Shown here: piece after piece, positions 1,289 through 51,061 of the stretch
Layout: every line of letters starts with the position of its first letter
How positions within the stretch are numbered: position 1 is the stretch's first letter
Assembly (NCBI RefSeq): GCF_017094505.1
Contig: NZ_CP064787.1
Location: 1,302,001-1,366,000, forward strand
Length of the DNA: 64,000 nucleotides
Direction of reading: 5' to 3'
From: Halapricum desulfuricans
GTDB lineage: Archaea > Halobacteriota > Halobacteria > Halobacteriales > Haloarculaceae
Position numbers and translations under genes: made by a program
The notes under the pieces: generated by a model
Seen by the model: only the letters and a program-made list of their open reading frames with translations
Database searches by the model: none
Told to the model about the DNA's origin: nothing

Positions 1289-1363
<75 letters not shown>

Positions 1364-1463
1364 TGGCTTTTCGAGCGAACGAAATGAACGAGAAACAGCC
1401 ACGCGCAGGGACAGAATTTGAACCACGGCAGACGCGCGTAACGCCGTGAGCACGTCTGGCATC

Positions 1464-1484
1464 GGGTTCAAATCCCTGACCGAG
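1464..1484 (+). repeat. Duplicated 3' tail of tRNA-Glu
   Basis: The 21 bases covering the T-loop and the 3' acceptor strand of tRNA-Glu (1341-1361) are repeated exactly here, followed by TA instead of CA. The 5' half of a tRNA is absent, so this is a tail copy and not a second tRNA. Such copies are what integration of an element at a tRNA 3' end leaves behind (an attR-like scar). The 100 bases between the copies hold no gene. Confidence 0.75.
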
Positions 1485-1563
1485 TATTCTGTAGCCCGCA
1501 AGCTCGCGAGCGACTGCTGTTCATCGCTCGAACGTTCCGAACGACGTGAGCGAGAAGCGCGAC

Positions 1564-17928: not shown

Positions 17929-20900
17929 TCACGTCGTCCGCAGGTTGCCGTTGGTCGGTTCGTAGATCTCGCCTTGCTGTTTGAGCTTCTCGATCTCGTG
18001 TTCGGCCTTCGACTCGTCGATCCCGACTTCCTCGGCGCGCTCGATCACGACCTCAACTGGCGCGCCGTCGTCGTACTCGTCCTGGATGTCGGCGATGATC
18101 CCCTTGATGTTCTGGATGCGGTCGCGCTGGCTCTTCGAGGTCCCCGTCTCGACGACGTCGGCGTCGAGTTCGCCGGTTTCGGGGTCGACGCCGATGTCCT
18201 GTAGCGACGAGCGGACGATCTCGATCACTCGCTCGGCGTCGCGCTGCTCGACGGTGTCCGAGAGCCGCACGCGGGCCGAGGCCTCGGCCAGCCGGATCAG
18301 CGCCTCGATCTTCCGGGCGGTCACGGGAACTGCGGCGTCTTCGTCCTGGCCCTTCGAGCGCAAGTCGACGTAGAACGATTCGATCTCGTCTTTGGCCTCC
18401 TCGGTCATCGTCGGGAAGCAGTTGCGCTTGGCGTAGGCGATGTACTTGCGCAGCAGTTCGGGATCGATCGTCGGGTCGACCTCCTCGGTGACGGTCTCGA
18501 CTTCCTCCGCCGAGAAGTCCGGCGTCGCGTTCTCCTGACGGTGGGTGTGCAACTCGCCGGCGTAGTTGGTCGTCAGGATGTGCTGGGCAAGCTTTCGGTC
18601 CTCCTCCTCGTTGGGCTTGTCGGTGACCGTGAAGATCAGATCGAATCGCGAAATGAGGGCGGGCTCCAGGTCGATCTGTTCGCCGATCGGCTCGTACTGG
18701 TCGAACCGCCCGTACTTCGGGTTTGCCGCCCCGAGCAGCGAACAGCGACTTTTCAGTGTCGCGTTAATTCCGGCTTTACTTACGCTAATTGACTGTTGCT
18801 CTAGCGCTTGGTGCATCGCTGAGCGGTCCTCGGAATTGTGGACGACCATCCCGTTGGCAACGAAGTTGTGGGTTCCTTCGACTGTGAGATCGTATACGTT
18901 CGGTTTCCTGCGAGCCTCGATCTCGTCGAGTAGCTCGCTGGCCCGTCGTCTGATATCGGTCACTTTCTTCGACAGGACGTCTCGAATATCTCCCATTCGG
19001 TCGGTTTCGACCACCCCGCGAACCCACCGCGACACCGTCGACGGGGCGACGTCGACCGCTCTCGCTAGCTCCGCATACGAGATATCGTACGCTTCGGCGA
19101 CAGTTCGGATAGACTCCACATCGCCGATGTCCGGTTCAGCCGCCAGTAGCGTTTCGGCCCGTTCGACTGCATCGCCAGACGAACAACCAAGTACCCCGGC
19201 GAGTTCCTCTCGCAAGAGCCGAATCTGGTCGTCCTCGCTCGCGGCCTGGACCGTCTCGGCAGTCTGGACTTGGCGCCACTTCACATCTCCGTAGACAAGT
19301 TCTCTGAACTGCGTCAGGTCGGTCGCTGCCACGTCCGACAGGATCTCGTCAAGTCCCCCTCGGATCACTGGCTGCAGTTCCGGATCACTACCCCAGCGTC
19401 TCGATATCTGCTGCTGGCTGTAGCTCGTGCCCGTCGACAGTTCACTCTGGGAGACGTGGTATCGCCTGCGTACCTGTTCGAGTGTTTCCCAGTCGGCATC
19501 GTCGATCCGTCCGCGGTCTCGATCCGCCTGGTGGACGCGCTCCTCGAACGTGTCGAGAACGGTTCGTGCTGCGCGGATCGAGATGTTCGCGTCCTCGTTT
19601 TCGAAGTTGCAGTACGTCACATCGTTTAGCCCGCACTCTGACTGGTAGAGCCGCAGCGACTCCCGACAGTCTTCGAGCAGGGAACCACAGTGGGGAATCA
19701 CGTCGAGAATCGTCCGGTCTCCGGAGACAGCAGCCACAGCACTCGCGAGCGCTTCCTGTTTCCTGTCGAGCGTAAAGCCGACGTGACGATCGAACGCGTT
19801 GAGCGAGTCAGCGTCGGTGATCGTGAGTAAATACACGTCACGTCCGTCTGCTCGTTCCCGGGTCTGGATCTGGCTGGTAATACCGAACTCCAGTAGCAAC
19901 TGTTTGGCGGCCAAGAGGAGTTCGTAGCTCGACGAGAAGATCCGAACGTTCCGGTCGTCGACACTCCCCTCGCTATCGGCGAGCGCACGCAAGAAGGCCG
20001 CCTTCGTGGCACGAGAACTTTTACTCACTGCTTCGGGGAGCCGTTTCCCGTCGTACGTTTCGAGATTCATCCCCGCGTCGAGAACGGCGTCCGCGTACGA
20101 TTTACCGGGGAGTCGAACCGTCTCGACGCCGTCGTCTCGCTGTTCGCTGGGTGGCCTGACCGGTTCGGCGTCGAAGGCAGTCCTGCACACGTCTTCGAAG
20201 TCAGCGAGCAGTTCCTCCTCGGCGTTCGTAAACCGGATTCCGTAGACACCTTCCTCGCGGTCGTAGTAGACATTGCCGTCCCCGGCGAGATAGCCGAGCA
20301 CAGCTCCGAGTGCTGGCGAGACGCTGTCTTCGCCGGACGTCGAATCGCCGTCGCTGGCTGTCGCCACTACACCGCCGTCGCTGGCAGCCGCTCGGAGGTC
20401 CCGGGGGACGTACACCCAGTCCCCGGCGTCGAGTTCATCCGCAGCCCGCTCGACGCGTCCATCCGCCGTCCGGGCGAAAAACGGGTGGTCGGCTGTCGTC
20501 GTGAGCCGCTCACCCGTCTGTAACGTGACGCGCGTCAGATCCTCGGGTGCGTCGTACTCGTGGACTGCCGAGACGGGTCGTGTCACCAACTGGCCGCTGT
20601 CGGTCATCGTCCAGACACGAAGGTCGACGTCTCTGATCGTTCGTCCGTTCGAGAGCGTCTCCACCTCACCATCGTCGACTGCATCGTAGGCGACGTCCCG
20701 AATTCGATGGATACCGTCTTCGAGATGGACAAGCGTGTCGCCGGTCACGCAGCGCATCTTGTCGAGTTCGTCGACTGCCGCGATCCCTTGATCGGCAAGA
20801 ACGAGCGCTCCAGCCTCCAACGTCCACTGCTGGCCGTCTCCGAAGTCGTCTCTAACAGCCGCAGCGGTGTTGTGGGTTACGACGCCGTTGCCGACGAAGT

Positions 20901-23499
20901 TGTGTGTCTCGGGCACAGTGAGATCGAACACTTCTTTCTCGCCGGTATCGACTGCGGCGACGACCTCGTCCCAGCGGAGGTCCACGTCCACGGCTTCACG
21001 AACCAGCGGCTCGACGGATCCGAGATCGAGATCGTCCAGCATCGATCGGGCGCGGGCGCGGCCCGGGTTGTCGCCGCCTCGTACGTTCGTATGATACGCT
21101 CCGGCGGTACCGTCGGCCGCTGCGGTGAGCGCCTGTCCGATCGGGAGCATCTCGGGTTGGTGTCGTTCGTCGCCGACGATCCGTTCGAGCGCTGCCCGCT
21201 TCTCAGACGATTCGAACCCGATCGCCTCCGCAAACCGATCGATATCCGCGCCGTACATCTCTACGAAATACTGGACGTGCTTGGATTCGATCTCGTGGCC
21301 GTCTGCACGTTCGTACGTCCCGCGCCGGTCACGCTCTCGCACCTTGGCTTGCACGCCGCAGGTCTCTAGCAGCAACTGGATTTGTCGGGCGAGTTCGTCG
21401 CTGATCGTCGAGAGCAGAACGCTCGATCCGCCGTCGTCCCGGACGGACACGGACCCGTCCGCATCCATCAATCCGCGAAGGAACGCATCGGCGTGGGCGG
21501 CAGTCGTCAGCTCCGGTGCGAGCGCGAGGTTCTCCTTCGGCGACTCCATCCCGGCGTTCGAGAACAGTCGTGCGATCGTCACGCTGTTGACCCGGATGCA
21601 CGGAACTCGGTCGTCCTGATACTCGATGTCCGGTCGTTTGTCGAACTTCTCGGCGAAGATGTCGGCTGCTCGTTCGAGCAACCGCTCGTCGCTATTGGAG
21701 ACACGGACCAGACCACGATCGAGTGCAATATCGCCGTCTCCGAAGACGAGCCCGAGAAGATACAGCAGGTCCTCGTCGAACGTCTCCGGAAGCGTGATCG
21801 AATCGCCGTGACGGACCATCAATCGCTCGAATTCGATCCGGTCTCGAGGGGTATCGGTCGCGTCGAGCATCCGATCGAGTTTCTCGACGGGAACGTGACG
21901 GTTCTTGAGGTGGAGGTAGATGAAGTCCTCCGAGAGGTCCAGTTCGGCCGCTGCGTCCCGCAGCGTTCCGAATTCCTCGACGAGTGCGTCCCGGAGGTAC
22001 GCGACGGAGTCGTCGGCGAGCTTTACTTTCTCGTTTGTGAGTTCGACAAATTCCCGAACAGAGCGCTCTTCGCGCTCAATCCCGTCGTAGCGCGGCACTG
22101 CGACGTGATCGCCTGCCTCGATGTCGGAGATCTGTGTCCACTCGATGCCGTCCTCGCCGCAGGTTAACACTGGCGTGTTGACGGACGCTTCGAGTTCCTT
22201 CCCGTGTCGGGTTTCGACCCGTCGGCACTGCTTTTCCGGCATCCGCCAGACATGTGACGAGGACTGTTCGACCATCTCGCCGCTCTCCCGGTCGAACGTC
22301 TGCACGCCGATCTGTTTTTCGACGGCTGTTTCCTCAACCACGGGATCCGGGAGTTCGGGCTCGACGATATCGCGTATCTCTCTGAACCCGTCGTCGGTCT
22401 GGACAACCGTGTCACCGGTAACACAGAGCCCGGCCGCCGATGATCCTTTCCCCGATGTATAGACGGATCTCGGGGCGATATTTTGGATATATGATAACAT
22501 CTGCGATTTGCCAGTTCCGGGGTCACCGATCAAGAGCATATGCAGGTCCCCACGGATCCGAGAGCCGTCGGGGAGGTCCTTCGAGACGCCCGAGAACAGC
22601 TGGAGGATCATCGAGAGCTTCTCCTGCTCGTAGCCGTAGATCGAGGGGGCGATCGCGCCGACCATCTGCTCGTAGATGTCGGGTTCGTTCGAGAGCTCGA
22701 CGATCTCCTTTTTGTCCTCGTCGGTGATGTCCATCTCCTCGAACTGCTCGTCCTCGATCTCGACGGTCATCCCGTCCATGTACGTGTCGAACATGGGGGT
22801 CTTCTCGTTGCCGCTCTCGCGCTGGTCGAGTTTGAGGACGCCGGTCACGCGGACGTGATCGCCCGCCGTGACGTTGCCGGTGATGTCGTCTTCGATGTTG
22901 ACGTCGATCGACTGAGGCGTCTCGCCGCCGCGCAGTCCCTCGGGAGACTCCTGAACGCGGATCTTCTGGGCGTCGATGAACTCCGACTGGTCGAAGTTGA
23001 TCCGGAACGGCCCCTGCCGTTCACAGCCCTGACACTCGTGGGGCTCCTGGAAGTCGCCCGTCGTCTGTGGAATGCGCGTCAGCGTCCCACAGCGCTGGCA
23101 CTCGAAGGCCGCGTCGGTGACTTTCGGTCGGACCTCCGTGGCCTTGCGGACGATCCCCTGAACGCTGATGAGCTGTCCGCGGTGGTCGGCCCGGATGTCC
23201 CGGATGCCCGTCGCCTCGGGCAGGTTCTCGATCCGGACGTGGGCCTGCCCGAGTTTGACGTCGACAGGGAGGTCGTACAGTCGCAGCGCCTCCTCGGCGT
23301 ACTCTTGGAGCTGCTCGGGCTGGTTGCGAACGTCCTCGGCCAGATCCGGGTCGAACCGGTAGAGGTCCTGCCAGTCGACGAACAGCGACTTCTGTTCGGA
23401 GGGGTACTTCTGTGCGAGTTCGCCGATCTCGTTGCGATAGTAATCCCGGTAGAACTCCTCGAAGCGATCGATGAGTTCGGTGTTGTCCGCGGTGGCCAT
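17929..23499 (-). CDS. mcm: Replicative DNA helicase MCM, interrupted by two inteins
   Basis: 1856 aa precursor. Removing inteins of 519 and 639 aa leaves 698 aa, the normal length of haloarchaeal MCM. The N-terminal domain has a zinc ribbon (CQRCGTLTRIP and CQGCERQG). The ATPase has Walker A GDPGTGKSQML near residue 325, then intein 1 after SGKGSSAAGL. A 39-residue extein piece (878-916) contains the Walker B end AAVDELDKMR. Intein 2 follows, then SEDRSAMHQALEQQ, the arginine-finger region ISRFDLIFTV and a C-terminal winged helix. As the hexameric replicative helicase it is essential, so both inteins must splice efficiently. Confidence 0.95.
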   Translation of the reverse strand: MATADNTELIDRFEEFYRDYYRNEIGELAQKYPSEQKSLFVDWQDLYRFDPDLAEDVRNQPEQLQEYAEEALRLYDLPVDVKLGQAHVRIENLPEATGIRDIRADHRGQLISVQGIVRKATEVRPKVTDAAFECQRCGTLTRIPQTTGDFQEPHECQGCERQGPFRINFDQSEFIDAQKIRVQESPEGLRGGETPQSIDVNIEDDITGNVTAGDHVRVTGVLKLDQRESGNEKTPMFDTYMDGMTVEIEDEQFEEMDITDEDKKEIVELSNEPDIYEQMVGAIAPSIYGYEQEKLSMILQLFSGVSKDLPDGSRIRGDLHMLLIGDPGTGKSQMLSYIQNIAPRSVYTSGKGSSAAGLCVTGDTVVQTDDGFREIRDIVEPELPDPVVEETAVEKQIGVQTFDRESGEMVEQSSSHVWRMPEKQCRRVETRHGKELEASVNTPVLTCGEDGIEWTQISDIEAGDHVAVPRYDGIEREERSVREFVELTNEKVKLADDSVAYLRDALVEEFGTLRDAAAELDLSEDFIYLHLKNRHVPVEKLDRMLDATDTPRDRIEFERLMVRHGDSITLPETFDEDLLYLLGLVFGDGDIALDRGLVRVSNSDERLLERAADIFAEKFDKRPDIEYQDDRVPCIRVNSVTIARLFSNAGMESPKENLALAPELTTAAHADAFLRGLMDADGSVSVRDDGGSSVLLSTISDELARQIQLLLETCGVQAKVRERDRRGTYERADGHEIESKHVQYFVEMYGADIDRFAEAIGFESSEKRAALERIVGDERHQPEMLPIGQALTAAADGTAGAYHTNVRGGDNPGRARARSMLDDLDLGSVEPLVREAVDVDLRWDEVVAAVDTGEKEVFDLTVPETHNFVGNGVVTHNTAAAVRDDFGDGQQWTLEAGALVLADQGIAAVDELDKMRCVTGDTLVHLEDGIHRIRDVAYDAVDDGEVETLSNGRTIRDVDLRVWTMTDSGQLVTRPVSAVHEYDAPEDLTRVTLQTGERLTTTADHPFFARTADGRVERAADELDAGDWVYVPRDLRAAASDGGVVATASDGDSTSGEDSVSPALGAVLGYLAGDGNVYYDREEGVYGIRFTNAEEELLADFEDVCRTAFDAEPVRPPSEQRDDGVETVRLPGKSYADAVLDAGMNLETYDGKRLPEAVSKSSRATKAAFLRALADSEGSVDDRNVRIFSSSYELLLAAKQLLLEFGITSQIQTRERADGRDVYLLTITDADSLNAFDRHVGFTLDRKQEALASAVAAVSGDRTILDVIPHCGSLLEDCRESLRLYQSECGLNDVTYCNFENEDANISIRAARTVLDTFEERVHQADRDRGRIDDADWETLEQVRRRYHVSQSELSTGTSYSQQQISRRWGSDPELQPVIRGGLDEILSDVAATDLTQFRELVYGDVKWRQVQTAETVQAASEDDQIRLLREELAGVLGCSSGDAVERAETLLAAEPDIGDVESIRTVAEAYDISYAELARAVDVAPSTVSRWVRGVVETDRMGDIRDVLSKKVTDIRRRASELLDEIEARRKPNVYDLTVEGTHNFVANGMVVHNSEDRSAMHQALEQQSISVSKAGINATLKSRCSLLGAANPKYGRFDQYEPIGEQIDLEPALISRFDLIFTVTDKPNEEEDRKLAQHILTTNYAGELHTHRQENATPDFSAEEVETVTEEVDPTIDPELLRKYIAYAKRNCFPTMTEEAKDEIESFYVDLRSKGQDEDAAVPVTARKIEALIRLAEASARVRLSDTVEQRDAERVIEIVRSSLQDIGVDPETGELDADVVETGTSKSQRDRIQNIKGIIADIQDEYDDGAPVEVVIERAEEVGIDESKAEHEIEKLKQQGEIYEPTNGNLRTT
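18835..20751 (-). mobile_element. Intein 2 of MCM (639 aa, endonuclease plus HTH insertion)
   Basis: Residues 917-1555 of the precursor, starting CVTGDTLVHLEDG and ending GTHNFVANGMVVHN before Ser. The endonuclease motifs are LGAVLGYLAGDGNVYY and AAFLRALADSEGSVDD. C-terminal to these lie two helix-turn-helix-like segments: SELSTGTSYSQQQISRRWG and AELARAVDVAPSTVSRWVRG. The second falls inside about 110 residues placed between a Hint strand resembling intein 1 (YGDVKWRQV versus DLRWDEV) and the final NVYDLTVEGTHNF block. It sits directly after the Walker B DELDKM motif. Confidence 0.9.
20869..22425 (-). mobile_element. Intein 1 of MCM (519 aa, LAGLIDADG endonuclease type)
   Basis: Residues 359-877 of the precursor. 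The first residue is Cys (CVTGDTVVQTDDG, block A). It ends ETHNFVGNGVVTHN and is followed by Thr, so the splice chemistry is Cys/Asn/Thr. Two endonuclease motifs, LLYLLGLVFGDGDI and FLRGLMDADGSVSV, contain the acidic residues expected of a DOD homing endonuclease, so it may still be active. It interrupts the conserved SAAGL-TAAV segment of the helicase between Walker A and Walker B. Confidence 0.9.
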
Positions 23500-23532: not shown

Positions 23533-23573
23533 GAAGGTTGGCAAAGCACAGCGAAAGTGAGTGGGTGGGGTGC
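23533..23573 (+). repeat. 41-bp direct repeat, copy 1
   Basis: A 41-base sequence (core GGCAAAGCACAGCGAAAGTG) lies 34 bases upstream of the mcm start and recurs at 23717-23757 with two mismatches. The ~140 bases between the copies hold an imperfect palindromic CTCGCTCGCTACGCTCGCGAG stretch and no gene. It may be a duplication scar or a small repeat family. Confidence 0.7.
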
Positions 23574-23716
23574 GGTTTTTCCCACGGGAAGACGGTCCGG
23601 CTCGCTCGTTGTACTCGCTGCGCGGGCTGCGACTTCCCTGCTCTCGCTCGCTACGCTCGCGAGAACCATGTTTTTGCGCGAGCGACCAGCGGGAGCGAGC
23701 GGAAAAAGTGGCAACT

Positions 23717-23757
23717 GAAGGGTGGCAAAGCACGGCGAAAGTGAGTGGGTGGGGTGC
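23717..23757 (+). repeat. 41-bp direct repeat, copy 2
   Basis: Second copy of the repeat at 23533-23573, ending five bases before the stop codon of the ABC transporter ATPase gene. Both copies lie in the 263-base space between mcm and the transporter genes. Confidence 0.7.
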
Positions 23758-41858: not shown

Positions 41859-42000
41859 TCGTTGGCCGTTCCCGTCCGCGTCGACCATCCGAAATGTGGT
41901 GGTCGAAGCGGTACGCCGGTACGGCAATCTGTGTGATTCCGGACGAAATTCGGATCGAGTTCGGAAATCGTACTTACCTCAGTTGTCCGTGTGTGTCGAC

Positions 42001-42495
42001 ATGGAACCGACGAGACGACAGTTCCTCGGGACGGCCACGCTCACGGTTGCGCTCGCTGGCTGTCTCGGAGGCGACGGAAACGGATCGAACCCGACGACGA
42101 CGGACGATCTGACGGTTTCAGTCCGGTCGACCGACAACTACGGCGACGTTCTGGTCGGCCCGGATGGCATGACCCTGTACATGTTCGTCCCCGACGGAGA
42201 CGCGGACGGTAGCACGTGTTACGACGCCTGTGCGACCACGTGGCTACCGCTGACCGTGGCTGAAAGCCCGTCCGCAGCCGACAACGTGACGGCAACCCTG
42301 TCGACGATCGCCCGCGACGACGGGCCGACGCAAGTCCTGGCCGGAGAGTGGCCTCTGTATTACTACGCGGGCGACGACACCCCCGGTGACGTCAACGGAC
42401 AGGGCGTCAACGACGCGTGGTACGTGCTTCGACCGGACGGATCGCCGCTCCGGGGACCGGCGACGACGGACGACGGCGGCGGAATCGGATACTGA
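42001..42495 (+). CDS. Tat lipoprotein with COG4315-type repeats
   Basis: 164 aa. It begins MEPTRRQFLGTATL (twin arginine) with lipobox LAGC near residue 20. The mature part has the secreted lipoprotein repeat pattern: GDVLVGPDGMTLYMFVPDGD, CYDACATTWLPLTV, LAGEWPLYYYAGDDTPGDVN and GVNDAWYVLRPDG. Two cysteines (CYDAC) are conserved in this group. Function is unknown; it is a surface-anchored protein. ATG 42001 replaces the earlier in-frame ATG at 41806, which lies inside the membrane-protein gene. Confidence 0.88.
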   Translation: MEPTRRQFLGTATLTVALAGCLGGDGNGSNPTTTDDLTVSVRSTDNYGDVLVGPDGMTLYMFVPDGDADGSTCYDACATTWLPLTVAESPSAADNVTATLSTIARDDGPTQVLAGEWPLYYYAGDDTPGDVNGQGVNDAWYVLRPDGSPLRGPATTDDGGGIGY

Positions 42496-42634
42496 TACTG
42501 CCGGCGGTACGTCCATACAGGTATCGGCCCAGGATGCCGAACGCCTTCGAAACGGCACAGCAGGCAGCGTGAGACGGGCTGCTGTAGCGGTCTGTCGGTT
42601 CGTGCGTTCCCGCGGAACGGACCGACAGCAGCTA

Positions 42635-43186
<552 letters not shown>

Positions 43187-43328
43187 GGAAATCACTGGCA
43201 GGCCGGGCGGCATAACAGTGGCGATGCGACCGGAGGCGGATCGCCGGAACGCGATCGGGTTAATGACGCTTTTCTAACCGGTAGCCAGAAACTTTTTCAT
43301 TATCCGCGAAAGTCACTCACGTATTCGA

Positions 43329-43928
43329 ATGCCATCCGGTGACACACAGACCGTACTCGTCGTCGACGACGAACCGGACGTCGCCGATGCCTACGCCGCA
43401 CAGTTGCGCGATCGGTATACTGTGCGGACGGCGTACGGCGGTCAGCAGGCGCTGGAGGCGGTCGACGAGACGGTCGACGTCGTGTTACTGGATCGACGAA
43501 TGCCGGAGCAGTCCGGCGACGACGTGCTCGAATCACTGCGATCGAAGGGGGTCGAGACGCGGGTTGCGATGGTGACGGCCGTCGATCCGGATTTCGACGT
43601 CATCGAGATGCCGTTCGACGACTATCTCACGAAGCCGGTCTCGCGCACGGAGTTGTTCGACACGGTCGAGCGCTTGCTCACCTGTGCGAAGTACGACGAG
43701 CAGTTTCAGGAGTTCTATTCGCTGACGAGCAAACTCGCGACGCTGCAGGCCAACAAGAGCCAGTCCGAACTCGAAAACAGCGAGGAGTTCGCCGAACTCA
43801 CCGAGCGGCGTGAGAACGTCCGCAAGCAACTCGACCGGACGCTCTCGGAGTTCAACGACGACGCGTTCGCCGCGATGTTCCGCGAGTTGAATCCGAGGCC
43901 GCCGCTCACAGGCGAGTTGACCGATTGA
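43329..43928 (+). CDS. HalX-type response regulator
   Basis: 199 aa. The receiver domain is intact: VLVVDDEPDVADAYA (acidic pocket), VVLLDRRMPEQSGDD (phospho-acceptor Asp near residue 57), DYLTKPVSRTEL (Lys). The C-terminal HalX domain is a helical hairpin (YDEQFQEFYSLTSKLATLQA, RENVRKQLDRTLSEFND). HalX regulators are haloarchaeal and lack a canonical DNA-binding domain. No kinase is adjacent. Confidence 0.92.
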   Translation: MPSGDTQTVLVVDDEPDVADAYAAQLRDRYTVRTAYGGQQALEAVDETVDVVLLDRRMPEQSGDDVLESLRSKGVETRVAMVTAVDPDFDVIEMPFDDYLTKPVSRTELFDTVERLLTCAKYDEQFQEFYSLTSKLATLQANKSQSELENSEEFAELTERRENVRKQLDRTLSEFNDDAFAAMFRELNPRPPLTGELTD

Positions 43929-44003
43929 TCTTCCGCTGTCGCCCGTCCCGGAGAGTGTCGCTTCCGAAAGCACTAACGTCGGCTCTTCCCTAGGACTGTT
44001 CGA

Positions 44004-44942
44004 ATGAGTGAGCAGTTACCGGACGTCCAGGCGACGAGCCCGGACGTTACAGTCGGACTGAATCGGGTCGGCGTCACGGGCGTCGAGAAACTCGTTAAAC
44101 TCGGTCGTGAGGACAAACGACCGATCGTCCTGATGGCCGAGTTCGAGGTGTTCGTCGACCTCCCCTCCTGGCGGAAGGGTGCCGACATGTCCCGGAACAT
44201 GGAGGTCATCGACGAGACGCTTGAGGCCGCCGTCGCCGAGGAGGCCTACCGGGTCGAGAACGTCTGTGGCGAGGCCGCAGAGCGCCTGCTAGAGAAACAC
44301 GACTACACCGAGGAGGCCGAAGTGCGAATGGAGGCCGAGTACGTCACGCGCGATCGGACGCCCGAGAGCGACAAACCGACCCAGTCGACGGCCACGATAA
44401 TCGCGTCCGCGACAGCCACTGGAGACGGCACGAGAGAGGAGATCGGTGCCGAGGTCACGGGCATGACGGTCTGTCCCTGCAGTCAGGGGATGTCCGTCGC
44501 CCGTGCGCGACAGACGCTGACCGATCTCGACGTCGAGGAGGACGTCATCGACGAGTTCCTCGAGAAGGTTCCCCAGCCGGGACACTCCCAGCGGGGCCAC
44601 GCCACGCTGACGGTTGAGACCGACGGCGACCCGCCGGTCGATCTCAACGAACTCATCGAGATCGCCCGCGAGTCGATGAGCGCCCGGATCTACAACCTGG
44701 CCAAGCGCCCTGACGAGGACCACATGACCTACCAGTCACACAGCGACGCCAAGTTCGTCGAGGACTGTGTCCGTTCGATGGCCGAGGGCGTCGTCGAGCG
44801 GTATCCCGATCTGGACGACGACGCCATCGTCCGCATGAAACAGTCTAACGACGAGTCGATCCACCAGCACAACGCCCACGCCGAGCGCGTCGCGACCGCC
44901 GAGGACCTGAGAGGCGAAGTCAACGGCGACGGCGGCGAGTGA
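44004..44942 (+). CDS. mptA: GTP cyclohydrolase MptA (FolE2/type IB)
   Basis: 312 aa. It converts GTP to 7,8-dihydroneopterin 2',3'-cyclic phosphate, the entry to pterin (tetrahydrofolate/methanopterin) synthesis in archaea. FolE2-family features are [20 protein letters not shown] at the start, [40 protein letters not shown] with the metal-binding Cys near residue 158, and [16 protein letters not shown]. The start at ATG 44004 gives the family length. Confidence 0.94.
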
Positions 44943-45023
44943 ACACGGTGCTCGATCGCACGCGAGCGAGATCCGCAGGCGACGCTCGCGTCCTGTGACG
45001 CTGTCCCGACCGTTGAGAGTCGA

Positions 45024-46097
45024 CTAGTTCGGGAGTTGTGGTGCCGGTCGTTCGCCCAGCGTGAGCGCGACCGTCTCGCGGCGACCGTCGCGGACGACCT
45101 CGAGTTCGATCGTGTCGCCCGGGCTCGTCTGGAGTGCGAGAAACGTCGAGAGCGCCTGTTCGGTCGGGATCGGCTGGCCGCCCATACGCTTGATGACGTC
45201 ACCCTCTTCGAGGACCCCGTCCGCGGGTCCGTCGTCGATCGCACTGGCGACGTAGATCCCCTCCGCCACGTCGAGACCGATACGCTCGGCGAGTTCGGGC
45301 GTGACGGGCCTGAGTGTAATACCCATGTACGGGTGGCTGTACTCGCCGGTCTCGATCAGTGCGGGGACGACTCGCGAGACGAGTGCGCCCGAGATGGCGA
45401 ACCCGATGTTGTCGCCGCCGCCGGAGTTGATCACGCCGACGACCGACCCCCGGAGGTCCACCAGCGGACCGCCGCTGTTCCCGGGATTGACCGGGGCGTC
45501 GGTCTGGATCGCGTCCGGGATCGAGAACCCGCTGCCGGCCGTGGCAGGGAGCGAGCGATTCAGGCCGCTGACGATCCCCGAGGAGACTGACCCGGAGAAC
45601 CCGAAGGGATTGCCGATCGCCAGGACTTCTTCGCCGATCGGCGGGTCCTGCCTCCTGAGCGGGAGTGCGGCCGCCGAGTCCGGCACGCTTTCGGGACGCA
45701 GGACTGCGAGGTCGCTATAGACGTCTTCGGCGCGAACGGTTGCCGATCGCCAGTCGCCCGTCCGAAACCGGACGAACACGTCCGTCGCGTTCCTGACGAC
45801 GTGTTCGTTGGTCACCAGCCTGCCGTCGGTATCGTAGACCCAGCCAGTTCCGCGGGCGACGCCCGAGCCTGTCCGGACGCGGATCTGTGCGACCGAGTCT
45901 CTGACTGCCCGATAGACGTCAGTGAACCGTGACGGATTGCCCTGATCGTCGGGAGTCCCGAGCGGCTCGAGATCAGTGACGTTCCCCGGTAAGTCGTCCC
46001 CATCGCTCGCAGGGGCGGTCGCACAGCCGGCGAGTGCGATTCCCGCGCCCACAGCCAGTGAGCCGAGAAATCTCCGTCGAGTGGTTTCGTCTGACAT
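45024..46097 (-). CDS. HtrA/DegP-like serine protease, Tat lipoprotein
   Basis: 357 aa. The N-terminus TRRRFLGSLAVGAGIALAGC has a twin-arginine motif and lipobox. The trypsin-like domain holds the triad: His in VTNEHVVRNATD near residue 105, Asp in DVYSDLAVLRP, Ser in NPGNSGGPLVDLRG near 210. One PDZ domain follows (ASAIDDGPADGVLEEGDVIK). It should degrade or hold misfolded proteins at the outer cell surface. Confidence 0.93.
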   Translation of the reverse strand: MSDETTRRRFLGSLAVGAGIALAGCATAPASDGDDLPGNVTDLEPLGTPDDQGNPSRFTDVYRAVRDSVAQIRVRTGSGVARGTGWVYDTDGRLVTNEHVVRNATDVFVRFRTGDWRSATVRAEDVYSDLAVLRPESVPDSAAALPLRRQDPPIGEEVLAIGNPFGFSGSVSSGIVSGLNRSLPATAGSGFSIPDAIQTDAPVNPGNSGGPLVDLRGSVVGVINSGGGDNIGFAISGALVSRVVPALIETGEYSHPYMGITLRPVTPELAERIGLDVAEGIYVASAIDDGPADGVLEEGDVIKRMGGQPIPTEQALSTFLALQTSPGDTIELEVVRDGRRETVALTLGERPAPQLPN

Positions 46098-46181
46098 ATG
46101 CTGTGTTCAGGACGTGTCGTGAATAAAGGCTCGGGGGCGAGAGCGCAAGCATTTTTCGTCCCGAAGTGGATCTCTGGGTGA

Positions 46182-46254
46182 GGGCGTGTGGCCTAGCGGA
46201 CAGGGCGAGAGGTTCCTAACCTCTCGATCGCGGGTTCGAATCCCGCCACGCCCG
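46182..46254 (+). tRNA. tRNA-Arg (anticodon CCU)
   Basis: 73 nt cloverleaf. Acceptor GGGCGTG pairs with CACGCCC, and G is the discriminator. The anticodon arm AGAGG-TTCCTAA-CCTCT presents CCT, reading AGG. The T arm is GCGGGTTCGAATCCCGC. CCA is not encoded and no intron is seen. It is followed by several degraded copies of its own 3' tail. Confidence 0.95.
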
Positions 46255-46301
46255 TACAAGAACCGACGAGCGAAGCGAGTCGGTGACCGCACCGGCATGG
46301 C

Positions 46302-46565
46302 GGGATTCGAATCAGGGAGGTCGCGCGCAGCGAAGCGAGCACGTCCGACCGTGGTTCGAAACCCGTCACGCCCGTGCTGCGACCGAAGGGAGCGAACCGG
46401 ACCGGGATTCAAATCCTGCCAGTCGCAGCCCGCACAGCGAACGTAGTGAGCGAGCAGGTACGTCTGGCTGCAGTTCGACTCCCGCCACGCCCGTTCACTC
46501 GCGTCGCTCGCGAGCGTGGCGAACATCGCGAAACCTCCGGGTTCGCTCAATCCCCTCACGCCCGT
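46302..46565 (+). repeat. Array of decayed tRNA-Arg 3'-tail copies
   Basis: Downstream of tRNA-Arg the T-arm plus acceptor tail recurs in degraded form about five times: 46302-46320, 46351-46375, 46403-46421, 46470-46494 and 46538-46565. Three of them still end CACGCCCGT. Between them lie GCGAAGCGAGC-like and GTAGTGAGCGAGC-like spacers. TCACGCCCGTGCTGCGACCG occurs twice (46366 and 46556). None has a 5' tRNA half. This looks like stacked integration scars or tail-directed duplications. No protein gene is present in 46255-46587. Confidence 0.75.
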
Positions 46566-46587
46566 GCTGCGACCGGGCGTTACCGAG

Positions 46588-47463
46588 TCACCCCGAGGGG
46601 GACCCGTCGTCGAGCTGCCGTTTCATCTGTCGAAGTCGGCTCCGTATTTTCTGCAGTTCCGCCTCGGCCTCTTCGGCAGTCAGCTCCGCGGGGAGTGTTT
46701 GCCAGTCCGGTCGATCGACGTCCGAGTCCCCGTTTCTCGTCCGGTCGCGTCGGTCTCCCTCACTCTGCAGATCCGTGATGTCGGCCGTGAGGAAGTCGAT
46801 GCCTTTCTGTTCGGCTTCGAGCCGCTTTTCGCGAGATTCGAGCGCGTCGAAGCCGACAGTCGCGGCGATCGTGTCCGCGTCCGGCCCGAGTAGCTCTTCG
46901 ACTTCGTCCCAGTCAGTCCGTAACTGCCGGCCGGCGTCGATGACGTTCGAGAACGACCCGAGACGGCTCAACGAGCCAGCGTGACCCATACCCTTGCCAC
47001 GCTCGCGTGCCCGCAGGTGACTCATTTTCTCGGTCAGGAGCACCGCAGCCTGCGCTTCTCGCCCCCCGTAGATCGGATCCTTGCCGAGTGCTTCCCAGGA
47101 CACGCGTGCCCGGTCAGCTTCGACGTCGTCCAGCACTGCAATCTCAGACGTTACGAGATAGGTGAACGGTGACAGTGAACCGTCACTTTTGCGAGTGATT
47201 GTGTTCTCGATGCGCCATTCGCTGTCGGTCCCCCGATCGAAGACGCGTTCGACACGGACTTCGAACTGTCCCCGCCGGCCGACATAGCTCTCCAGCAGAC
47301 ACAGACACCGATCAGCGCTACCGGGGAGACCTTCCGGTGGCAGCAACCGCTGTCCTTCGAAGTGGTAGTCCTTCCGTGTGGATACCTGAGTCGGCAACAA
47401 CTGCTCGAGATGCTTGTTAACGCGTCGGTTGACGACGTCTTCGGGCCCGAACCCAGATCCCAT
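46588..47463 (-). CDS. Unknown protein next to the tRNA-Arg tail array
   Basis: 291 aa from ATG 47463 (MGSGFGPEDVVNRRVNKHLE); the frame opens at 47604 without support. The first 170 residues are a mixed alpha/beta region (YVGRRGQFEVRVERVFDRGT, SPFTYLVTSEIAVLDDVEAD). The rest is helical, ending with a coiled coil (TAEEAEAELQKIRSRLRQMK). A few cysteines (CLCLLE) are present but no motif I can name. Its place between a tRNA scar array and a MITE suggests accessory origin. An AT-rich stretch (ATATATG, TTTTAAAG) lies upstream. Confidence 0.65.
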   Translation of the reverse strand: MGSGFGPEDVVNRRVNKHLEQLLPTQVSTRKDYHFEGQRLLPPEGLPGSADRCLCLLESYVGRRGQFEVRVERVFDRGTDSEWRIENTITRKSDGSLSPFTYLVTSEIAVLDDVEADRARVSWEALGKDPIYGGREAQAAVLLTEKMSHLRARERGKGMGHAGSLSRLGSFSNVIDAGRQLRTDWDEVEELLGPDADTIAATVGFDALESREKRLEAEQKGIDFLTADITDLQSEGDRRDRTRNGDSDVDRPDWQTLPAELTAEEAEAELQKIRSRLRQMKRQLDDGSPSG

Positions 47464-47797
47464 TCCACATATATGTAATCCAGATATAATTTTAAAGATT
47501 GGCTTGACGGCAGATATCACGCTCAAGGTCACGAAGCACGGACGGCAGTGAGTCAATATTTCATTCCCGAGCGCGGCACACCAGACATCAGAGGCGTCGG
47601 GCACTTCTGTGAGTGTGTCGACGCCTGAAATCCGTTTCAGCAGTTTCGAGCCGGAGCCTCCGGTCCAGGATTCGACGTGTACTGGTAGTGACTACCGTAC
47701 GTCTGTTCCGGATCAATCGCCCGACTGCAGGCGATCGCAGCGGTACATCGCTGTAGCAGTCACTATGAGGTTCTGCGCGAAGCCCAGGGTCTCGGGC
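47464..47797. other. Gene-free interval holding MITE copy B
   Basis: 334 bases between the unknown gene and the end of pfkB. The first 60 bases are AT-rich promoter-like sequence for the unknown gene. Bases 47685-47766 are a MITE. I see no credible ORF in the remainder. Confidence 0.6.
47685..47766 (-). mobile_element. MITE, copy B (82 bp), homolog of the element at 6156
   Basis: Read on the minus strand it starts ATAGTGACTGCTACAG then CGATGTACCG; copy A starts ATAGTGACCGTTGTAC then CGATGTACCG, the same ten bases at the same offset. The other end reads GTAGTGACTACCGTAC then GTCTGTTCCGG, against ATAGTGACCGTTGTAC then GCCTGTTCGGG in copy A. Length is identical. The ends here are less perfectly inverted than in copy A, and the inner hairpin is ATCGCC/GGCGAT. 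It is the older or more decayed copy. Confidence 0.75.
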
Positions 47798-48763
47798 TCA
47801 GCCGTCCATCTCCCAGACGCGGACCTCGTTTATCCGCTCTTGAGGATTGAGATCCCGGACGCTGGAACCGGTGACGGTCACGAGCTTCCAGGCGGTCGCG
47901 ACGCCCGCTCGAAGTGCCTTCTCGTCGCTCCAGCCCTGTTCGTCGGCCCACAGGACCGCCGCGAACAGCGCGTCACCGGCACCGACGGTGTCGACGACCT
48001 CGACGTCGACCGCTGAGGAGTAAAGCGTCTGATCGGGCGTGACCATCACCGCCCCTTCACTGCCCATCGAGGCGATGACCCGCTCGAACCCCATCTCGTG
48101 GAGCTGTTTCGCCGCCTGTTCGCAGTCGGTGATCGTCTCGACGGTGATACCGGTCGCCGCCTCCAGTTCCTCGCGGTTGGGACGACAGTACTCGTAGGTC
48201 TCTTCGAGATCGGTCAGTACATCGCCGTGGATGTCGACGGCGGTTTTCCAGTCGCCGGCGGCGGCGATACGGTCGACTGCCGCGGCGTCCATCCCCGGGG
48301 GCAGACTCCCGCCGATGTTGAGGATTTCCGGGTCGTGTTCCCGAACGGTCTCGATCAGCAGATCGACGACGTGGTCAGTAACCTCCGGCCCGGTCTGCAG
48401 CAGCCGGTACTCCGATCGCGGGTGGTCACTCTCTTCGTCCATGCGGGACGTCTGGAATTGCTCGCGTCCAGGCGCGAGGATCGTCGTGTTGATCCTGGTC
48501 GGCTGCGATTCGATCTGGCAGAAGTCAGTCGGAATCCCGAACTCCGAGAGCGTCTGTTCGATGAAATAGCCCGTGAACCCGCCAGTGATTCCTGTCGCGG
48601 TCGTCTCGCCGCCGAGCGCGCGGACGAACTGTGAGACGTTGATTCCGTTGCCGCCCGCATCGAACTTTGCGCCGACGGACGTCTGAACAGCGTCTGGTTC
48701 CAGTGGTTCGTCCATCTCGATCGTCTGATCGACCGCCGGGTTCGGCGTCAGTGTGAGTATCAT
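47798..48763 (-). CDS. pfkB: 1-phosphofructokinase (PfkB family)
   Basis: 321 aa. MILTLTPNPAVDQTIEMDE is the N-terminal signature of the fructose-1-phosphate kinase branch. DAGGNGINVSQFVRALGG provides sugar contacts. The PfkB signature with catalytic Asp is VVDTVGAGDALFAAVLWA near residue 250. In haloarchaea this enzyme makes fructose 1,6-bisphosphate from imported fructose-1-phosphate; no PTS genes are in the window. A CTTAATT box lies about 28 bases upstream. Confidence 0.92.
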   Translation of the reverse strand: MILTLTPNPAVDQTIEMDEPLEPDAVQTSVGAKFDAGGNGINVSQFVRALGGETTATGITGGFTGYFIEQTLSEFGIPTDFCQIESQPTRINTTILAPGREQFQTSRMDEESDHPRSEYRLLQTGPEVTDHVVDLLIETVREHDPEILNIGGSLPPGMDAAAVDRIAAAGDWKTAVDIHGDVLTDLEETYEYCRPNREELEAATGITVETITDCEQAAKQLHEMGFERVIASMGSEGAVMVTPDQTLYSSAVDVEVVDTVGAGDALFAAVLWADEQGWSDEKALRAGVATAWKLVTVTGSSVRDLNPQERINEVRVWEMDG

Positions 48764-49140
48764 ACCTGTACTGTCTTCACCCGGGGACTTAATTGTCGCC
48801 TCGTCGCTCGCGTGACTGCCGTTCCGTGGCGCATCGACCGACGCTGTCGCAAGGTGAATGAAACTCTCTCCGGAGTCAGATCGCTCGAGAGACTGCGTCG
48901 CTCGCCGTCACAGAAATCGAGGGATCCGTACGGCTCCGGGGCAGTCGTCTCGCACCGCCTGTACACACGCGTCTGCGGTCCGGTTTGTGAGTATCGCTTC
49001 CGGCGACTGTCCGTCCGATATCTTCCACATCGACGACGATCCGGTGCGGGGAGGGCTCGTCGGGACGCACTTCGAACGCGTCTGCGAGTCCCGTCCGGAC
49101 CTCCCTGTCTCTCCGGCGAAGAGATGACCCCGCGCAGGGC
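48764..49140. other. Gene-free interval, possibly decayed coding sequence
   Basis: 377 bases between pfkB and the aminotransferase gene. On the minus strand, fragments such as EVRTGLADAFEVRPDEP and, in another frame, EAILTNRTADACVQAVRDDC look protein-like but never join in one frame with a start codon. No reliable gene is called. The promoter of pfkB occupies the left end. Confidence 0.4.
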
Positions 49141-50247
49141 TCACAGCCCGTCGAGTAAGGCATCAATATCGCCCGCCGTGTTGAACGCGTGGACCGACGC
49201 CCGGACGGCCTTCGGGTACGGCAGCGACCGGACGATCACGTCTCGATCGCGCAGACGCTCGACGGTCGCTTCCGGATCGTCGACGCGGAACGTGACCAGC
49301 CCGGACTCGTACTCGTGGGGGCTGAGCAGTCGCTCGTCGTCGATGCCGTCCTTGAGTCGGTCGGTGAGACGCTCGATCCGGGCTTCCACGGTCGACATCC
49401 CGATCTCCTCGAGGAGATCCATCGCCTCGGACAGGCCGACGTGCGGGAGCGGCGAGGCGGTGCCGACCTCGAAGCGGGACGCCCCGTCTTTGAACGCGTA
49501 CTCCGGGTCAGTCGGCTCTTCGACAGAGCGGTAGCCGATCCGGCGCGGCACGAGTTCGTCGATCGCGTCGCTGTCGACGTAAATGAAGCCGCTCCCGAAT
49601 GGACCGAGCAGCCACTTGTGGCCGGCCCCGACCACGAAATCCGCGCCCCAGTCGTCGAGGTCGACGGGGTACTGGCCGGGCGACTGGACCGCGTCGACGA
49701 GCACGCGAGCGCCGGCGTCGTGTGCGATGTCGGCGATTTCCCCGACCGGCAGGCGCGTCCCGTGAGTCCAGGTGAGCGAACTTACCGCGAACAGCCGTGC
49801 GTCCTCGGCGGCGGCCGCGACCGCGTCGAGGTCGACTCGCCCGTCCTCCGTTTCGAGGACCCGGACTTCGATCCCGTCGAGATCAGCCAGCCGGTCCCAG
49901 GGGAGTATCCCGGCGGGGTGTTCGAGGTCGGTCCGCACGACGACGTCGCCGGGTTGCCAGTCGATCGCGCAGGCGAGCAGGTTCACGCCGTCGGCTGTGC
50001 TTCTGGTGAGCGCGATTTCGTCGGCGTCGGCACCGAGAAAGTCGGCGATCGTCGCCCGTGCGGCCTCGTAGGTCTCCCAGCCGACCTCGTAGACGCCCTC
50101 GCCGGCCGGAACTTCGTACTCGAAATACGCCGCGAAGTCCGTCATCGCCTCGACGACGCGACGCGGGCTCGGGCTCGACGCGCCGGTGTTGAGATAGGTG
50201 GCGCGTTCGAGCGCCGGCATGTCCGCACGCAGTTGCTCGGGGTCCAT
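49141..50247 (-). CDS. Class V aminotransferase, cysteine-desulfurase-like
   Basis: 368 aa. The PLP lysine is in DFVVGAGHKWLLGPFGSGF near residue 195, and the cofactor aspartate is in ARVLVDAVQSPGQYPVDL. The start (ATYLNTGASSPSPRRVVEAM) matches SufS/isopenicillin-epimerase-like members. The C-terminal active-site cysteine loop typical of true desulfurases (RAGHHC) is not seen; the corresponding region reads YPKAVRASVHAFN, so desulfurase activity is doubtful and another lyase or epimerase reaction is possible. Confidence 0.88.
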   Translation of the reverse strand: MDPEQLRADMPALERATYLNTGASSPSPRRVVEAMTDFAAYFEYEVPAGEGVYEVGWETYEAARATIADFLGADADEIALTRSTADGVNLLACAIDWQPGDVVVRTDLEHPAGILPWDRLADLDGIEVRVLETEDGRVDLDAVAAAAEDARLFAVSSLTWTHGTRLPVGEIADIAHDAGARVLVDAVQSPGQYPVDLDDWGADFVVGAGHKWLLGPFGSGFIYVDSDAIDELVPRRIGYRSVEEPTDPEYAFKDGASRFEVGTASPLPHVGLSEAMDLLEEIGMSTVEARIERLTDRLKDGIDDERLLSPHEYESGLVTFRVDDPEATVERLRDRDVIVRSLPYPKAVRASVHAFNTAGDIDALLDGL

Positions 50248-50321
50248 ACACGAGTATGGTGGTTCCGTCCGTTTGATGCTGTCGGCAGCGACAGGCCCGG
50301 CCAGTCAACCAGTCCGCTGTC

Positions 50322-50681
50322 TCACAGCACGGCTCCGAGGGCGTGCCCGACGCCGGCCCCGAGCGCGACGCCGATCAGCGCCGCGCTCAGCGTCCCGACG
50401 GCGTTGACGATTGCGCGACGCCGGCGCCCGGTCTCGTAGAGCCGCACGGTCTCGAAGGCGAACGACGAGAACGTCGTGAACGCGCCACAGAATCCCGTCG
50501 CGAACACGGACGTCAGTCCGGACCCGATCGGCACCGTGACGAACAACCCGAGCGCGACGCTCCCCAGAACGTTGACGGCGAACGTGTCGGCGGTGTCGGT
50601 CTCGATTCGCGCGCCGACGAGATGCCGGGCGATCGCGCCGAGAACGCCGCCGACGCCGACGAGGACGGCGGGGCTGGTCAC
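50322..50681 (-). CDS. crcB: Fluoride channel CrcB/Fluc, subunit 1
   Basis: 119 aa, four membrane helices. Family motifs are GGVLGAIARHLVG, FAVNVLGSVALGLFV with the pore Asn, and GFCGAFTTFSSFAFET with the FTTFS signature. It exports fluoride as a dual-topology or heterodimeric channel. It overlaps the second crcB gene by 4 bases (ATGA). Confidence 0.93.
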   Translation of the reverse strand: MTSPAVLVGVGGVLGAIARHLVGARIETDTADTFAVNVLGSVALGLFVTVPIGSGLTSVFATGFCGAFTTFSSFAFETVRLYETGRRRRAIVNAVGTLSAALIGVALGAGVGHALGAVL

Positions 50682-51061
50682 GGCAGCGACCCCCGGGTGA
50701 CAGCCCGGGCCGCGATCACGGCGAGGAACCCGAGCGCGTAGTTCGCGCCGACGTTGACCAGCGCCATTGCCGGATCGAGCGCCGTCGTCTCGACCGCGAA
50801 GGCGCTGTAGGTGGTGAACGACGACAGCAGCCCGGTTCCGAGGGTGAGTCGCGTCTCCGCGCTCAGCAGGTCCGTGAGTCGCGCCTCGTAGAGCAACAGT
50901 CCGAGTGCGAAACTCCCCAGCGCGTTCACGGTCAGCGTCCCCCAGGGAAACCCGCCCGGCAGCGCCGCCGAGACAGCATACCGGAGCGTCGCGCCGACGA
51001 ACCCACCGATAGCGATCAACAGCAGTGGTTCGACCCGCGCGATCGGATGGTCTTCGTTCAT
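50678..51061 (-). CDS. crcB: Fluoride channel CrcB/Fluc, subunit 2
   Basis: 127 aa, four membrane helices. Motifs are GGFVGATLRYAVSAALPGGF, LTVNALGSFALGLLLYEARL and GTGLLSSFTTYSAFAVETT, where FTTYS replaces FTTFS. It is translated just before the other crcB with an ATGA overlap. The pair probably forms an obligate heterodimer with opposite membrane orientation. No fluoride riboswitch-like structure was recognised upstream. Confidence 0.93.
   Translation of the reverse strand: MNEDHPIARVEPLLLIAIGGFVGATLRYAVSAALPGGFPWGTLTVNALGSFALGLLLYEARLTDLLSAETRLTLGTGLLSSFTTYSAFAVETTALDPAMALVNVGANYALGFLAVIAARAVTRGSLP

Follow-up and report, generated by a model that had tools for sequence, protein, structure and literature searches.

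Hairpin units carrying tRNA tail copies form arrays downstream of haloarchaeal tRNA genes: a candidate family of very short mobile elements

Introduction

The tyrT terminal repeats of Escherichia coli lie in tandem downstream of a tRNA, each with the 3' end of that tRNA, and are known from one locus with a unit of 178 bp. Integron cassette arrays consist of tandem cassettes with recombination-site repeats between them, the attC sites, which form imperfect hairpins. Mitochondrial double hairpins and other repetitive hairpin-forming elements are discussed in PMC2800124, and the PATEs of Haloquadratum (PMC3119063) are palindromic elements related to REP and IS605. Copies of tRNA 3' ends are also familiar as proviral attR sites; as far as the consulted portions of an archaeal integrase review and of haloarchaeal genome papers go, these are single distant tail copies and not arrays (PMC8371274, PMC3119063, PMC3623002).

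Here we describe units from a 64,000-nt stretch of the Halapricum desulfuricans genome (the window) and from other haloarchaea. Like the tyrT repeats they are tandem repeats 3' of a tRNA that contain the tRNA 3' end, but instead of one locus they occupy about half of this genome's tRNAs, they are found in nearly all haloarchaea, and their hairpin cores are common to different tRNAs. With integron arrays they share imperfect hairpins and tandem units, and the T-loop motif GTTCRAA loosely resembles the attC core, whereas the units carry no cargo genes and are anchored to many tRNA genes. They are short, non-coding, patchy between close relatives, located in RNA genes and intergenic DNA, and without known function, as are mitochondrial double hairpins; what distinguishes them is their occurrence in archaeal chromosomes, the tRNA T-loop as target, arms that fit the tRNA beside them, a tRNA left intact with a duplicate of its 22-nt tail, and their arrangement in arrays. 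They are palindromic and non-autonomous like the REP/IS605-related elements, to which the haloarchaeal PATEs belong, but PATEs are not described as tied to tRNAs or as carrying tail copies (PMC3119063). Finally, like a proviral attR they repeat the tRNA 3' end downstream; an attR is usually one copy, kilobases away and beside element genes (PMC8371274), while the units come in 1-4 copies at 80-180 nt without genes. No prior description of such tRNA-tail hairpin units was found in the open-access literature searched, including the archaeal integrase review and an archaeal tRNA cluster survey, and a feature present in 96% of the sampled haloarchaeal genomes thus seems to be undescribed.

Results

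Hairpin units downstream of tRNA-Arg(CCT) and tRNA-Glu

The original prediction, made from the letters of the window, was that tRNA-Arg is followed by about five decayed copies of its own 3' tail. Five copies are indeed present, but only three of them are direct tail copies, the other two being inverted copies of the T-arm (Table 1). The spacing, which had been called irregular, follows a loose period of 80-180 nt. An exact 20-nt duplicate, also part of the prediction, was located at 46366-46385 and 46556-46575. In the predicted DNA fold of the array, the tRNA-Arg(CCT) tail and the first inverted copy form 16 bp. The hairpin class of unit 3 was also seen after tRNA-Arg(CCT) in other genera. 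As had been anticipated, the downstream pattern is common to tRNA-Glu at 1.3 kb, which carries a unit of the same architecture.

Table 1. Coordinates of tRNA genes, hairpin units and the related mcm-site element in the window
Feature	Position	Strand	Evidence
tRNA-Glu(TTC); tail 1342-1363	1289..1363	+	ARAGORN, Rfam
One unit after tRNA-Glu: first hairpin 1364-1412, inverted T-loop 1413-1424, core 1425-1464, tail copy 1465-1486 (21/22)	1364..1486	+	
83-nt double-hairpin element of related core class, upstream of mcm and not beside a tRNA	23583..23665	-	
tRNA-Arg(CCT), intact; 22-nt tail 46233-46254	46182..46254	+	ARAGORN; Rfam RF00005, 66.9 bits
Unit 1 first hairpin, loop motif GAGCGAAGCGAG	46255..46301	+	Sequence, predicted folds
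Unit 1 inverted tail copy TGGCGGGATTCGAATC; predicted pairing with 46233-46248	46298..46313	-	Match to tRNA -20..-3; fold
Unit 1 hairpin core AGGGAGGTCGCGCGCAGCGAAGCGAGCACGTCCGACCGT	46314..46352	+	Close relatives at six other tRNAs of the same genome
Direct tail copy 1, 20/22	46353..46374	+	Tail alignment
Unit 2 first hairpin	46375..46403	+	Sequence
Unit 2 inverted T-loop copy, 10/12	46404..46415	-	Sequence
Unit 2 hairpin core, class CTGCCAGTCGC...GTCTGGC	46416..46471	+	Sequence
Direct tail copy 2, 20/22	46472..46493	+	Tail alignment
Unit 3: inverted acceptor GAGCGTGGCG and hairpin with end GGGTTCGCTC; different hairpin class	46494..46548	+	Sequence
Direct tail copy 3, short, 14/16, starting at -16	46549..46564	+	Tail alignment
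Truncated repeat of unit 2 first hairpin	46565..46575	+	Part of the exact 20-nt duplicate

Only the two tRNAs of the window reach the Rfam gathering score, and the units match no known structured RNA family. No integrase-like ORF was recognised beside the array when the ORFs at 42000-51000 were scanned by eye. The unit 1 core was found letter-identical in another genus of the family (L068) and in another family (G172:C1:2273685-2273743), hinting at either horizontal spread or long conservation.

Own-tail copies across the genome

The 2.94-Mb genome yielded 42 tRNA genes, and the 22-nt tail of each was compared with the flanks of the same gene, any match of at least 18/22 within 180 nt downstream counting as a copy. 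Such copies lie downstream of 22/42 tRNAs, as compared with 31/1720 control trials (1.8%) in which the tails of other tRNAs reached the same score; the upstream control gave 1/42, and that case was a tandem tRNA pair. For the tRNA-specific last 11 nt, at least 10/11 were matched at 23/42 tRNAs by their own tail versus 0.6% by the tails of others, and permutation of the tails among tRNAs gave z=13.9. These data confirm that the tail copies at tRNA genes are not due to chance. More than one tRNA is affected, as proposed, and the effect is genome-wide as well as class-wide (see below). The tRNAs without a copy include, judged by eye, some in an rRNA operon or with a close downstream gene.

Anatomy of the units

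Each unit consists, in this order, of a T-rich start with a short hairpin (about 30-50 nt), an inverted T-loop, a hairpin core (about 30-60 nt) and the 22-nt tail, from -22 to -1. Between 0 and 4 copies follow a tRNA at a tail-to-tail spacing of 80-180 nt, and no cargo was found in the gaps between tails, the larger gaps being occupied by further tRNA genes. Across all tRNAs the direct copies start sharply at -22, the GG of GGTTC, and end at -1; the inverted copies (anti-tails) span about -20 to -11.

The cores fall into classes with paired ends, among them AGGG...GACCGT, AGAG...TCGCGT and CCCTGG...TCCTCC. In this genome there are 9 core matches with at most 3 mismatches, all within tRNA units and at 7 different tRNAs. 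The units of tRNA-His and tRNA-Leu(taa), for example, have cores identical at 38/39 nt but different arms. Some of the core similarity may be convergent, since the cores share a compositionally simple motif. At Val(tac) and Leu(taa), identical tandem units have the look of a tandem duplication.

Because T-arms are near-palindromic, evidence for inverted copies was counted only at positions that vary between tRNAs (-17, -15, -12 and -11). At -17 the inverted arm fits the local tRNA in 96% of cases, versus 64% after permutation. Where the tRNA and the downstream tail copy (the 'echo') differ, the arm agrees with the tRNA at 21 positions and with the echo at 4, several of these positions being shifted by one insertion and hence not independent. 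That the arm tracks the tRNA and not the echo is expected if its partner in the fold is the tRNA's own T-loop.

Presence and absence of units and insertions in relatives

Copy-number comparison among relatives, which had been suggested at the outset, revealed whole-unit differences at three tRNAs between this genome and a sister species (G069). Specifically, one of the two genomes lacks the tRNA-Asn unit, with tails as the exact limits of the difference; at Leu(gag) the difference is the first unit of the array, and at Lys(ttt) it is one unit that belongs to a different core class and has Lys-specific arms. At the few alignable loci the units diverge like their flanks (95.7% identity for cores, 95.6% for flanks), and purifying selection on units relative to flanks was not seen there.

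The one plasmid match of the core query lies inside a tRNA gene, in a dense tRNA cluster of Haloarcula halophila. Here a hairpin with the same core is inserted into tRNA-Cys at the T-stem/T-loop junction, and the gene is uninterrupted in two Haloarcula relatives (L316 and L318). In L318, tRNA-Glu(ctc) holds a 60-nt insertion with a 10-nt direct repeat, CCGGTTCGAA, the site being empty in five other plasmids. Other hairpin insertions of H. halophila lie in tRNA-Thr and in an Ala-type tRNA, and relatives have the Thr gene uninterrupted. The sites of the plasmid insertions vary, including the T-stem/T-loop junction, the middle of the T-loop and the anticodon arm. Plasmids of several haloarchaeal genera (L315, L320-L326) have such a dense tRNA cluster beside a gene for a TROVE-domain (Ro60-like) protein, with several tRNAs interrupted by hairpins. 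Clusters of tRNAs with TROVE genes have already been reported, in a paper in which the word hairpin is absent (PMC6333295).

The 83-nt element upstream of mcm is exactly missing in the sister species, with near-identical flanks. It is present in two further genomes (G178 and G258), in the first of which a filled and an empty copy of the site stand in tandem; the sister species may therefore have lost it. Exact 23-nt direct repeats, GCGAAAGTGAGTGGGTGGGGTGC, flank this double hairpin at 23551-23573 and 23735-23757, 184 nt apart. The adjacent region 17929-23499 (minus strand) holds an 1856-aa MCM helicase ORF with two intein-like inserts (CVTGDTVVQ...VVTHN and CVTGDTLVH...MVVHN).

In the plasmid and mcm cases the basic element consists of two hairpins, with its start close to GTTC and its end close to GG; its first arm is replaced by the T-loop at chromosomal tRNAs. 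The hairpin core, found at 7 different tRNAs and in a related class upstream of mcm, thus occurs at several unrelated loci. Exact empty sites in relatives are available for the plasmid Glu, Cys and Thr insertions, the mcm site and the tRNA-Asn unit, and among the loci compared no chromosomal insertion was caught together with its new tail duplicate. Presence and absence alone give no direction; units can likewise be deleted when short repeats recombine.

Taxonomic distribution

To follow the units beyond this genome we searched for a signature consisting of an inverted T-loop, 30-60 nt and a direct T-loop. It occurs in 280 of 292 haloarchaeal genomes (96%), representing 74 of 77 genera, while a reversed-pattern control gave 0 matches. 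Among the non-haloarchaeal Halobacteriota, 4/101 genomes had a match, a single one each, and one listed match runs through a tRNA body. On named GTDB contigs, 62 of the 64 haloarchaeal matches among those listed lie 32-391 nt downstream of a tRNA on the same strand, the remaining 2/64 being at contig ends. Of the other 16 matches among those listed, 14 are without a tRNA and the two with one belong to Woesearchaeota. That group has matches in 10/237 genomes, several of these matches being true arrays of the same architecture in which the tRNA's own tail recurs at 20-22/22.

A near-perfect inverted repeat formed by a tRNA tail and its anti-tail (GGATTTGAACC...GGTTCAAATCC), possibly part of attachment sites, occurs in two Bifidobacterium genomes and in several GC-rich contigs of IMG/VR (L174, L176, L279, L281, L283, L284, L287 and L288). 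The start of a Verrucomicrobia contig (L172:113-167) is a palindrome in which two 3' halves of tRNA-Met stand head to head; it may be an assembly artefact.

Relation to proviruses

At tRNA-Gly(tcc) of this genome we found a 64-kb tailed-virus-like provirus (G000:C1:1918697-1982824) whose integrase adjoins the tRNA. About 30 nt of tRNA-Gly(tcc) recur at its distal end, and the first hairpin and anti-tail of a unit lie beyond that end. By this arrangement, the provirus used the tRNA itself and displaced the hairpin array distally. A TnpB-like transposon sequence was seen by eye just past the distal att.

The hairpin unit was found as a viral attP in no haloviral contig of IMG/VR and in no phage record. 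The hairpin-like IMG/VR matches were rejected as candidates: they are GC-rich contigs with tRNA tail/anti-tail palindromes, Bifidobacterium-like and not haloviral.

The original prediction held that a single integration leaves one tail copy and cannot account for the array, which is borne out by units that are genome-wide and class-wide. Its proposal of serial integration and loss at one attB is not supported, given the uniform -22 to -1 boundaries, the 80-180 nt spacing, the lack of cargo and the lack of carriers among the viral contigs and phage records searched. Comparison with integrase att sites, for which this one provirus served, likewise spoke against it, as its att block has 30 nt and the provirus sits between tRNA and array. 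The data instead favour the other option that had been named, the copying of tails by another mechanism.

Discussion

With moderate confidence, we take the array to be made up of stacked mobile elements that are very short (about 60-140 bp), non-coding and able to fold into hairpins; they would belong to a family spread across the haloarchaea, whose preferred target is the tRNA T-loop at GG|TTC. Such an element would move as DNA, with the T-loop serving as the left arm of the first hairpin and the core as the second hairpin. Within a chromosomal tRNA that is essential, it would survive only where duplication of the 22-nt tail keeps a complete tRNA upstream and leaves the former tail as the echo; a tail duplication that spares the tRNA would thus explain which chromosomal insertions survive. 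Arrays would grow or shrink by tandem duplication and by recombination between the 22-nt tails. The match of the anti-tail to the local tRNA is beyond simple insertion with target duplication and needs adaptation or templated correction, through which the arms might have been homogenised. Cas1/casposase was considered as a candidate enzyme only for the resemblance of the tail duplication to repeat duplication.

Tail and anti-tail copies could also arise without mobile elements, if replication slips or switches template at the T-arm, a near-palindrome. The roughly coincident boundary of anti-tail and echo (-22/-20) and the identical tandem units at Val(tac) and Leu(taa) would both fit, but the cores are not derived from tRNAs, are common to different tRNAs and genera, and appear inserted in tRNAs with empty relatives as well as at a non-tRNA site. 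The near absence of the signature in related classes with similar T-arms adds to these objections, and we consider this mechanism distinctly unlikely. It is more doubtful still that the arrays were left by proviruses or plasmids which tyrosine recombinases, with tRNA tails as attB, had repeatedly integrated and excised. Here the cores shared between different tRNAs and genera, the 80-180 nt spacing without cargo, the lack of carriers among the viral contigs and phage records searched and the tRNA-Gly(tcc) provirus outweigh the likeness of the 22-nt block, from T-loop edge to tRNA end, to a T-loop-class att site, even though a 22-nt tRNA duplication is reported at a Haloquadratum provirus end and tRNA 3' ends are the preferred sites of archaeal integrases (PMC3119063 and PMC8371274, respectively).

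A function at the RNA level seems unlikely, though less so than either of these. The units would then be structured pre-tRNA 3' trailers in which the anti-tail pairs with the T-arm, and their role would lie in termination, processing or tRNA dosage. Consistent with this, the units are always on the tRNA sense strand, the anti-tail tracks the tRNA, T makes up 45% of the tract after the tRNA and 40% of that after the echo versus 14% of the rest of the first hairpin, and the sense strand folds better by 3.1 kcal/mol (SE 0.4). This advantage, however, stems from G.A mismatches and not from G-U pairs, and the cores lack an RNA-type wobble signature, with no G-U excess and 43 G-T against 114 A-C, counts that are not independent as the cores are related. 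Moreover, the units diverge as fast as their flanks, are missing at about half of the tRNAs with copies gained or lost, and have one member away from any tRNA. The fold data do not suggest an RNA stem under selection, but sequence alone cannot separate DNA from RNA folding. The plasmid insertions in T-arm and anticodon arm could be archaeal tRNA introns, as they interrupt otherwise normal tRNA sequences and some haloarchaeal tRNA-cluster genes are annotated as intron-bearing or pseudogenes (PMC6333295). That such introns were ancestral to the chromosomal units is highly improbable given the differing insertion sites, the 10-nt target repeat of the Glu insertion, and chromosomal tRNAs that are intact with the unit outside. 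A speculative alternative, to which we give somewhat more credit than to RNA trailers while still doubting it, is an integron-like system of haloarchaea and some Woesearchaeota, in which a putative dedicated recombinase would insert, exchange and remove hairpins at tRNA genes, the hairpins being folded single strands with T-loop arms (GTTCRAA) and the tRNA genes anchoring cassette-like arrays.

If mobile, as we favour, the units would rank with the smallest mobile elements of prokaryotes that prefer particular sites, and would have a built-in sparing of the target tRNA. For annotation, tail copies near haloarchaeal tRNAs do not by themselves mark proviral attachment sites. The units also yield spurious ORFs, of which GRGGIRTRD is an example.
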